A stretch of 64,000 nt of DNA from an uncultured Clostridia bacterium (GTDB lineage: Bacteria; Bacillota; Clostridia; Christensenellales; Borkfalkiaceae): the NCBI GenBank assembly GCA_947626105.1, contig CANQQY010000007.1, positions 1-64,000 of the forward strand. Direction: 5' to 3'. The notes beneath the pieces were generated by a model, which saw only the letters and a list, made by a program, of their open reading frames with translations, did not search any database and had not been told where the DNA came from. Below are positions 1 through 3,772 of the stretch, piece after piece. Numbering within the stretch: position 1 is the first letter of the stretch; every line of letters starts with the position of its first letter. A program made the translations under genes and the position numbers.

Positions 1-175
1 TGTCACGAGCTTGCGAGTGACAGAGGATCTTGTCGCCCCTCTTAGGGGAGATGTCACGAGCTTGCGAGTGACAGAGGGGTTTCCGAAACCCCTTTCCCCT
101 CACTTTGTTCGGGGACTTCCCCTAAAAGGGGCAGCGAGGAAGGCTTCCCCCCTTCGGGGGTAATGACGCGGAAAC
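1..175. repeat. Dispersed palindromic repeats (family A)
   Basis: This non-coding stretch is built from short hairpins: a unit reading tgtcacgag-cttg-cgagtgaca appears twice, each followed by a cccct...agggg hairpin. The same units recur between genes across the window, for example at 3723-3772, 10789-10840 and 51393-51490. No promoter or gene is visible. It lies just downstream of the leftward LRR lipoprotein gene, and I see no clear U-tract terminator for that gene here. Confidence 0.7.
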
Positions 176-1930
176 TTACTTCCTCGTAACCGTTCCGTCC
201 TTTGCGATCGTCCCGTCCGTGCAGACGATCGTATAATCCGCTTCGGAACTTATGACATAATTCAATCCCACATCTCGTATGGTTTTCTGATTATATCCTT
301 CCTTGACTATGATATTGAACCATTCGTCGACTGTTCCGCGGAACTCGATTTCGGTCAACCCGCTCGAATCCAAAGCCCCCCATCCGAGCCCTCTGAGACT
401 CCTCGGAAGCACGATTTTCTGAAATGCCCCGCAGATTGCGGCGTTACCGATCTCCGTCACGCCCTCGGGGATCGTGATACTGTTGAGCGAATCGCACCCT
501 CGAAATGCCCACATCCCGATCTCCGTCACGCCCTCGGGGATCGTGATACTTGTCAAGAATTGGCAGCCTTCGAAAGCGGAAGCCCCGATACTTTTCACGC
601 TCTTCGGAAGTTCGATACTCTCGATCGCACAACCCACGAAAAGCCCTGCTTCAATCGCCGTCAAATCTTCGGGAAGGGTTACGGACGTGACGCCGAGGCA
701 ACCACGGAATGCGCCGCCCGCGATCGCCGTCGTGCCTTCCCGCACCGTATAGTGCCCCTCAAAGTCGGGATTTACCTTGACAAGGCAGTTTCCGTTGTAG
801 ACCTCATCCCCCTGTATGTTGTATTCATACAGGCTTGACCTGATATTCTCGCTTTCATAGGCGGTATCTAAGAAAGCATTCGAGCCAACCCGCCTCACGC
901 TGTCGGGAATACGGATCTCAGACAGCGAAATACACCGTTCAAACGCCGCTCCGCCAATCGTTTCCAATCCGTCGGGAAGATCAATTTCCGTCAGCGACCA
1001 GCAGCCATAAAACGCTAAGCTGTCGATCCTTTTCAGATTGCTGTTTTCGCCGAAAACGACCTTCTTCGGTGATTCATGTTCCCCGAGTATTACATATGGA
1101 AATGAAAACGCGCCGTTCCCGATCTCCGTCACGCTGTCCGGGATGCGGATCTCCTCGATTACCGAGTCGTACATGTCACATGCCCCGGCGGCGATCCCCT
1201 TCGTCCCCTCTTTCACCGTAAAAGTACGTCCGGCAACGGATCTTGCGTAAATGAGATAGTCTCCTATGTACAGTGCTCCGTCTTGATAGTTCTGTGAAAT
1301 CGGAGTACTCATACCCTCATAATTCCCGAAGAGAGCAGAAAAAGAGAGCGGTAAAGCGTCGGTACTACCCGTGACGCTTCCGAGATTTGGCTCATAGGGA
1401 AGTACGAGCTCTTCGAGGCTTACACAGAAGGGAAACGCGCCTTCAACCTGCGGAGTCCCAAAGGAAAAGACGCTGTCGGGGATCGTGATCTTTTTTACGG
1501 TAGCGGAGCTGCAAGAATGATAGTAGCCCACACTGATGACGGGCTTGCCCTCATGGACGCAGGGGAGCACGATCTCCTCTTCCTCATAGGGTTTTCCCTT
1601 CGTGACGGGATCGCCGTAGACAAGACGCCCGAATTCATCTAAAATTTGGGTCAATTCAACATATTCCCCGAACATGACGTCGTACCCGTCGACGCCGTCG
1701 AGCACAATGGGCATAAAGGTATAGGCGTCCGTCTCGGTAGCGTGCCATTCTTCGCCGCATAGATCGCACTTGCTCTTTGTCGTGTAGACGTGGCTGTGTT
1801 CGCCGAGGGGCGTTTTCTGCTGCTCCTCCTCGGAGCCCCCTTCCGTACCGCTCGGATTTCCGTCCGAGCCGCAGGCGGCAAGTGAAAAACACATGCATGC
1901 CGCCAAAAAGATTGCCAAAAACTTTTTCAT
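176..1930 (-). CDS. BspA-like leucine-rich-repeat lipoprotein
   Basis: A 584-residue surface lipoprotein. Residues 1-20 form a signal peptide ending in the lipobox SLAAC, so it should be exported and lipid-anchored at Cys20. A short Cys-containing segment (KCDLCGEEW, about residues 54-62) resembles one repeated in the larger LRR protein at 22506. From about residue 120 to 560 there are LRR_5/TpLRR repeats of the type IPDSVTEIGNGAF and IPEGVTEIG, as in Bacteroides and Treponema BspA. In that family such repeats bind host or partner-cell ligands; the ligand here is unknown. The start is set by AGGAGT six bases upstream of the ATG. It stands alone, with its own promoter (2121-2149) and a long structured leader containing an intrinsic terminator, so expression is probably controlled by attenuation. 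Confidence 0.85.
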   Translation of the reverse strand: MKKFLAIFLAACMCFSLAACGSDGNPSGTEGGSEEEQQKTPLGEHSHVYTTKSKCDLCGEEWHATETDAYTFMPIVLDGVDGYDVMFGEYVELTQILDEFGRLVYGDPVTKGKPYEEEEIVLPCVHEGKPVISVGYYHSCSSATVKKITIPDSVFSFGTPQVEGAFPFCVSLEELVLPYEPNLGSVTGSTDALPLSFSALFGNYEGMSTPISQNYQDGALYIGDYLIYARSVAGRTFTVKEGTKGIAAGACDMYDSVIEEIRIPDSVTEIGNGAFSFPYVILGEHESPKKVVFGENSNLKRIDSLAFYGCWSLTEIDLPDGLETIGGAAFERCISLSEIRIPDSVRRVGSNAFLDTAYESENIRSSLYEYNIQGDEVYNGNCLVKVNPDFEGHYTVREGTTAIAGGAFRGCLGVTSVTLPEDLTAIEAGLFVGCAIESIELPKSVKSIGASAFEGCQFLTSITIPEGVTEIGMWAFRGCDSLNSITIPEGVTEIGNAAICGAFQKIVLPRSLRGLGWGALDSSGLTEIEFRGTVDEWFNIIVKEGYNQKTIRDVGLNYVISSEADYTIVCTDGTIAKDGTVTRK

Positions 1931-1954
1931 ACAACTACTCCTAAAAATGTATTT

Positions 1955-2116
1955 GCGGGCAAAAAAATAAGGACGCTCCGATCACGGAACGCCCGCATGA
2001 GTATCCCGTGATTGTTGCGACACAATTGCGATTTCCAAACATTTCATTACGGAAAAAAGGATACACCTATGCCCGTTGTAGCCCTCATGAAATGTTTTTA
2101 TTCAATTGTGCCGCAA
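1955..2116 (-). promoter_or_regulatory. Structured attenuator-like 5' leader
   Basis: Read leftward, the leader starts with a long imperfect hairpin: outer arms 2103-2116 and 2015-2028 (13 of 14 pairs), middle arms 2087-2097 and 2037-2047 (11 pairs), and inner arms 2077-2083 and 2059-2065 (one mismatch). A terminator follows, with arms 1985-1994 and 1971-1980, loop TGAT, then TTATTTTTTT. The ATCACGG segment at 2006-2012 can pair with 1981-1987, which would break the terminator stem. This is the layout of a riboswitch or protein-controlled attenuator. I do not recognise it as a known class, and a palindromic element that happens to lie here is the alternative. Confidence 0.6.
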
Positions 2117-2120
2117 ATTC

Positions 2121-2149
2121 AGTATAACACCAAATACGGGAAAAATCAA
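2121..2149 (-). promoter_or_regulatory. Sigma-A type promoter for the LRR lipoprotein
   Basis: Read leftward, a -35 of TTGATT (2144-2149) and a -10 of TATACT (2121-2126) are separated by 17 bases, with a TG one base before the -10 (extended -10). Transcription should begin near 2112-2118, exactly at the first arm of the structured leader. That gives a leader of about 185 nt before the ATG at 1930. Confidence 0.7.
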
Positions 2150-3705: not shown

Positions 3706-3772
3706 ATAAACTCCTGTTTTTGAAACCCCTCAGTCACCTGCGGTGACAGCTCCCCTATGAGGGGCGCCAAGG
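3706..3772. repeat. Family A palindromic repeat upstream of clpX
   Basis: After the clpX ribosome-binding site (AGGAG) comes cccctcagtcacctg-cggtgacagctcccc-tatgaggggcgcc, two adjacent hairpins. The unit is nearly identical to those at 10789-10840 and 51393-51490. Confidence 0.7.

Follow-up and report, generated by a model that had tools for sequence, protein, structure and literature searches.

In adenine, lysine and SAM-type riboswitches, an aptamer strand or a linker competes for the antiterminator strand, and a structured domain occupies the 5′ end of the mRNA. The leader analysed here shares both the strand competition and the structured 5′ domain. We know of no regulation of the surface LRR lipoproteins of uncultured gut Clostridia, before which it lies. 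The guanidine-IV riboswitch and its Gd4v variant are reported to be ON switches, with sugE transporters downstream (PMC7736828, PMC9788692), and a catalogue of 3161 candidate structured RNAs has been compiled from human microbiomes (PMC8040213).

The comparisons below indicate that this leader is a real, conserved, riboswitch-like class, predicted to attenuate transcription before surface- and secreted-protein genes in many uncultured gut Clostridia. Single genomes carry as many as 15 copies of it, and it would offer a shared regulatory handle on LRR lipoproteins, one that a short synthetic RNA makes accessible to in vitro tests with no need to culture the host.

Architecture of the leader

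The window is the whole 64,000-nucleotide stretch of DNA that was analysed, and all leader features given here lie on its minus strand. The gene that the leader would regulate (176..1930, ATG at 1930) encodes a 584-aa secreted lipoprotein with BspA-type LRRs (LRR_5, E 3.4e-72), which agrees with the LRR lipoprotein gene named in the initial annotation. Upstream, the promoter (2121..2149) comprises TTGATT (2149-2144), a 17-nt spacer and TATACT (2126-2121), with an extended TG 5′ of the -10 hexamer. It had been called near-consensus, which was slightly generous for 9 of 12 consensus positions, although the promoter itself, with its extended -10, is present. A ribosome-binding site, AGGAG, was recognized from sequence at 1938..1942.

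Folding and covariation place a P1-P2-P3 hairpin domain at 2017..2114. P1 pairs 2114-2103 with 2028-2017; P2 pairs 2097-2087 with 2047-2037 and then GG 2083-2082 with CC 2052-2051; and the apical P3, inside P2, sets GGCTAC (2083-2078) against GTATCC (2064-2059) around the loop GGGCATAGG. The best-conserved unpaired stretch is AATA (2099..2102), the 5′ internal loop between P1 and P2. A long hairpin had been proposed at 2116-2015, and the stretch 2116-2000 does fold unusually well (z = -4.95; none of 200 shuffles was equally good). The element ACGGGCATAGG, read initially as an internal loop that could form a ligand pocket, belongs instead to the third stem, as its apical loop region; its GCAT (2069..2072) complements ATGC (1998-1995) in the linker.

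We refer to five strands from 5′ to 3′. Strand A is the P3 5′ arm, GGCTAC (2078..2083), and strand B the P3 3′ side, GTATCC (2059..2064), which has A or C as its partner. Strand C (ATCACGGGATACTC, 1999..2012), within the whole linker ATCACGGGATACTCATGC (2012-1995), pairs with B over long range or with D as antiterminator. Strand D (1980..1994) is the terminator 5′ arm (1994-1986) plus loop (1985-1980) and pairs with C (ON) or E (OFF), strand E (1961..1979) being the terminator 3′ arm (1979-1971) plus a T-rich tract (1970-1961). The intrinsic terminator read initially is thus present, as 1994-1986 against 1979-1971 followed by the U-tract. The antiterminator 2012-2006 with 1987-1981 is exactly as first described, and a forced fold extends it to 2003/1990; the competing pairing that the earlier reading overlooked is that of GTATCC (2064-2059) with GGATAC (2006-2001).

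A pattern scan of 1.2 kb found two promoter-like sites against 0.8 expected from shuffles, and three terminator-like sites against 1.5. On these counts the two features prove little by themselves, and the comparative evidence decides.

Two further kinds of sequence occur around the leaders. Directly past the T-rich tract, GCCCGCAAA (window 1960-1952) is common in members from the same genus and absent in others; it complements TTTGCGGGC of the terminator base. Short G+C-rich inverted repeats (TGTCACGAGCTTGCGAGTGACA, CTCAGTCACCTGYGGTGACAGCTCC, CCCCTCCTTGGGAGGGG) are intergenic and scattered through the genome, including window positions 1-75, 2225-2300 and 3725-3770, and such repeats also lie 3′ of the terminator at loci L003 and L004.

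Distribution of the leader

The initial annotation had raised the possibility that no similar leaders stand upstream of other genes; the opposite was found, in genome copies, in pattern matches and with covariance models. BLAST revealed three further strong places in the same genome besides the window leader. The broadest model found five copies there, each at E ≤1.7e-11 (C2, C3, C12, the window, and C7:68672-68817, outside the window); of its three further rows (E 0.002-0.04), two fall on copies already known but in the wrong orientation. Among 201 family genomes, a conserved-core pattern had 20 matches; these fell in 11 genomes, each of the leader's own genus, and the reversed pattern had no match. 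On the GTDB species set, the pattern gave 75 stretches: 68 in rabbit-gut metagenome-assembled Clostridia and seven chance-like ones, left out on the grounds of organism and of the absence, on reading, of promoter, P1 and terminator. The 68 kept stretches and the loci from the family genome pattern search made up 72 distinct alignment rows, from which model R1 was built.

The covariance search suggested at the outset recovered the leader across family, order and class samples. With R1, a match was present in 53 of the 61 genomes of the genus, one of which had as many as 15 copies, and in 123 of the 251 genomes sampled from the family, spread over 11 of 18 genera. A second model, R2, was then built on 101 aligned matches; it reached 49 of 297 genomes and 26 of 125 genera in the order sample and 46 of 291 genomes in the class sample; R3, rebuilt with distant members added, matched 65 of 274 genomes and 42 of 173 genera in the class sample, with up to 12 copies in one, where the genus, family, order and class samples all contain the leader's own lineage and are not mutually independent. 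Covariance-model E-values are rough, and model-based retrieval favours model-like members. In a phylum sample, R2 matched 0 of 298 other genomes, and its false-positive rate at E 1e-4 is therefore low; unmatched genomes of the class are also part of that sample.

Leaders were also seen in other settings. On IMG/VR contigs, classed as viral, 16 of 18 pattern-II stretches (L232-L247) have the full leader architecture by eye, several of them before a small protein; one of two such proteins tested had a marginal PASTA match (E 0.00093, under the family cut-off). The other two pattern-II stretches (L231, L248) are without the full architecture by eye. The type I pattern gave a single stretch on viral contigs, inside a coding sequence by eye and attributed to chance. 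One viral-contig leader compared by BLAST with phage and plasmid records had no match. Tandem pairs of complete leaders occur at L165 (3289-3421/3490-3624), L188 (543-674/766-901) and L200 (646-780/938-1072), an arrangement that resembles that of cooperative riboswitches. At L012, two larger leaders lie in tandem on the minus strand (G000:C5:83573 and 83968), which share the promoter type and have a P1 with a long outer helix (GCCAAACAGUUAAUC.../...GAUUACUGUUUGGC), the core GGUAAAAAUGC, the linker GGAGUUUGCGUUUUU and then a terminator; the models missed them, and they seem to be an enlarged relative of this RNA.

Covariation of the conserved helices

Among 100 distinct aligned members, 97.0% of 3775 cells in the four helices are paired, 32 of 38 pairs show changes on both sides, and covariation is 0.544 against 0.183 in shuffles; sliding the partners by 1-3 columns lowers pairing to 37-54%. 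A distant set of 42 members from the order and class samples, which R2 retrieved but was not built from, gave 96.2% pairing, both-side changes in 36 of 38 pairs and covariation of 0.718 against 0.220 in shuffles, both alignments being fitted to the model structure, a bias in its favour. The leader thus has the conserved secondary structure with covariation by which a riboswitch is judged.

Conservation centres on P1 and the AUA loop. The internal-loop A, U and A are conserved at 99/91/86% in the 100 members and 95/90/79% in the 42 distant ones, which makes AATA (2102-2099) a candidate recognition site. For a metabolite pocket, the leader has few unpaired nucleotides that are conserved. A -10 hexamer (at least 4/6) ends 6-7 nt 5′ of P1 in 71 of 72 members, and 69 of 72 have the extended TG.

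Mutually exclusive pairings

Because the covariance models contain none of the long-range pairs, these had no part in fitting the alignment. For each, duplexes between a member's own strands were compared with those between partners swapped among members, with the end-truncated L056 excluded. In the 42 distant members, own partners were better than swapped ones for B:C (-10.07 versus -6.83, s.d. 0.34), C:D (-15.53 versus -9.37, s.d. 0.44) and D:E (-13.94 versus -8.81, s.d. 0.33), with none of 500 shuffles as good in any case. The close set (n = 99) gave -9.86 versus -9.46, -15.76 versus -10.78 and -15.13 versus -12.81, respectively, again at 0/500 each. Non-neighbour controls A:C, B:D, C:E and A:D were reached in 280, 64, 55 and 373 of 500 shuffles in the distant set. 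In the close set, A:C (3/500) and C:E (0/500) also exceeded most shuffles, by margins of 0.2-0.4 kcal/mol, and relatedness therefore inflates these tests.

B:C is near-invariant in the close set, with three double changes, for example GUGUCC/GGGACAC (L177) and GUAUCUC/GAGAUAC (L175). In the distant members, the 3′ half of the apical core prefers its own linker (-12.14 versus -6.74, s.d. 0.39); the 5′ half has no such preference (-4.12 versus -3.99, reached in 153 of 500). By eye, the apical loop tracks the linker, GGCAU occurring with AUGC or GUGC, and GCCAA with UUGG in other families; the loop-linker duplex in the close set is -3.42 versus -2.89 (0/300). The antiterminator, formed by the linker start with the terminator loop, has 87.1% of its cells paired, compared with 68.8% in shuffles, and its duplexes prefer their own partners (-8.65 versus -4.13, s.d. 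0.24, n = 99; -9.77 versus -5.26, s.d. 0.33, n = 42). A:B is the weakest link: its half-core duplexes showed no gain over swapping in the close set (242/500) and were equalled by 1/500 in the distant set, and its support is the helix 3 pair count, 92.6% in the close and 89.2% in the distant set.

B:C and C:D overlap by at least 3 linker nt in 99 of 99 close and 42 of 42 distant members and are therefore mutually exclusive. On this comparative evidence, P1, P2, P3 and the terminator are shown to exist as RNA helices, and B:C, C:D and D:E as genuine alternatives with bases in common. The mutually exclusive coupling to an expression platform that is looked for in a riboswitch is accordingly found at the level of predicted pairing.

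The window leader folds almost equally well with terminator (-54.9 kcal/mol) or antiterminator (-54.0 kcal/mol), and in the growing chain the antiterminator fold is favoured once 1981 has been reached, losing its lead only when the terminator 3′ arm ends at 1971. On average, the terminator outweighs the alternatives by 5.6 kcal/mol in the 99 close members and by 4.1 kcal/mol in the 42 distant ones. With segment X swapped between members, this margin grows to 9.6 kcal/mol in the 99 and to 7.8 kcal/mol in those 30 of the 42 for which the exchange was feasible, pseudoknots being outside these fold energies.

Genes downstream of the leader

An ORF led by a ribosome-binding site lies within 450 nt downstream of 99 of 112 leaders examined, at a median gap of 28 nt from the leader end and at ≤60 nt in 72 of the 99. 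Regular expressions recognized a lipobox in 60 of these ORFs, an N-terminal zinc ribbon in 10 and a SDLYAIR-type N-terminus in seven; many of the 22 others are membrane or secreted proteins by eye. Pfam LRR_5 was found in 36 of the 99 ORFs and in 10 of 35 class-level ORFs (46/134), 19 of the 35 coming from a few chosen multi-copy genomes and one from the leader's own genome. Among 110 upstream ORFs taken as a control, LRR_5 did not rank with the 25 commonest families; the smallest of these had two members, so LRR_5 occurs in at most 2 of 110. The leaders thus precede a themed gene set, another feature by which riboswitches are judged, and the regulon would consist mostly of surface and secreted proteins. 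The gene contexts are too diverse to point to one ligand. The ORF that follows the fifth copy in the leader's own genome (C7:68672-68817, L294) encodes 86 aa and matches helix-turn-helix weakly (E 0.0076, under cut-off).

Proposed mechanism and alternatives

We propose that the leader is probably a cis-acting attenuator in which P1, the AUA internal loop and P2 together form a constant sensor domain that acts on the five-strand relay A:B/B:C/C:D/D:E, and in which a trigger would switch the gene ON. Neighbouring pairings of the relay would exclude each other. With A:B and C:D formed, E would be free and polymerase would read through; with B:C and D:E formed, the terminator, which we take to be functional, would arise and the gene would be OFF. 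OFF would be the resting state, because B:C would add to the terminator side, and the B:C plus D:E state would then prevail without the trigger. A trigger binding the constant domain would stabilize the local hairpin A:B and so turn the gene ON; it would most likely be a small molecule and, less likely, a protein. The relay would be a clean case of pairing strands that drift freely with mutual exclusion retained.

A more tentative extension is that the leaders form an unlisted riboswitch class, class-wide in the samples, with as many as 15 copies in a genome and with members on contigs classed as viral. Through it, one metabolite or second messenger might globally control BspA-type LRR surface proteins, along with other lipoproteins and membrane proteins of the zinc-ribbon type. 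If the leader is a true metabolite sensor, a large riboswitch class is absent from Rfam.

The sign of the switch may be the opposite, which we regard as unlikely: a ligand would stabilize the long-range B:C as a pseudoknot-type aptamer and favour the terminator, giving an OFF switch. Pseudoknots are a common form of ligand pocket, and B:C with its loop contacts is stronger than A:B (core against linker including loop contacts, -14.05 versus -7.90 shuffled, 42 members). A B:C that is already stronger would, however, leave the ligand little to switch.

It is also doubtful, to a similar degree, that the trigger is an RNA-binding protein or an antisense or trans RNA rather than a metabolite. The concentration of conservation in P1 and the AUA loop looks like a protein site, the weak helix-turn-helix ORF follows the fifth copy, and leaders L082 and L197 precede small ORFs that are winged-helix-like by eye, but no regulator consistently adjoins the leaders. 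P2 differs among paralogues, so that one antisense RNA would be unable to pair along it.

That the terminated leader is a free-standing small RNA, with the downstream gene incidental, is improbable. It has its own promoter and terminator, and some members are 200-450 nt from an ORF; against this, the gap is mostly short, the ribosome-binding site lies 3′ of the terminator, the LRR association holds on the downstream side only, and a bistable antiterminator would be useless in a pure small RNA. A ribosome-dependent attenuator with a leader peptide is very improbable: an ATG ORF of at least five codons exists in 38 of 100 and 19 of 42 members, but any start preceded by an SD-like 4-mer occurs in only 6 of 100 and 9 of 42, no leader peptide is conserved, and P1 starts at the predicted 5′ end, leaving no space for a ribosome-binding site ahead of it. 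The many copies per genome (up to 15) might suggest a MITE- or REP-like mobile repeat carrying promoter and hairpin, which is hardly credible given compensatory changes in four helices and in long-range pairs across families and a fixed site between promoter and genes led by ribosome-binding sites, features that a copy-spread repeat would not preserve.

Comparison with described RNAs

The initial annotation recognized no described class, and Rfam 15 (4227 models) bears this out: at gathering score, no family was found at the window leader or at any leader in 40 + 12 related loci. In E ≤10 mode, the window leader had weak matches only. Skipping-rope RNA (RF02924) exceeded its cut-off at L282 (30-129), in a distant genus and about 470 nt upstream of the leader there; it occurs in three of 12 chosen genomes, all of genus g153, and is absent from the leader's own genome, so it is not the leader. 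T-box (RF00230) was recognized at L219 (2345-2560) in the scan of the related loci, away from the leaders.

Surveys such as the human-microbiome catalogue might include this RNA as a numbered entry; in the main text of that catalogue, lipoprotein has no occurrence and zinc none (PMC8040213). Nor does the text of two genome-wide motif surveys, in the parts available, mention a lipoprotein or zinc-ribbon leader, and we found no description of the leader in the main texts of open-licence papers.

Like T-box (RF00230), the leader would be a Firmicutes attenuator that works through a terminator and an antiterminator. Of the described systems compared, guanidine-IV appears to be the nearest working analogue (PMC7736828, PMC9788692). 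There too, a terminator-embedded Firmicutes leader has a hairpin pseudoknotted to the terminator and many unrelated downstream genes. In guanidine-IV, however, the second hairpin is the terminator and the loops kiss, whereas the leader here has a linker that pairs with the hairpin 3′ arm or the terminator 5′ arm; the two-hairpin architecture is not seen here, and the genes downstream are different ones.

The strand competition shared with adenine, lysine and SAM-type riboswitches also differs in where constancy lies. Unlike in those classes, the sensor-side strands here vary freely yet stay complementary, and the constant part is P1 with the AUA loop.
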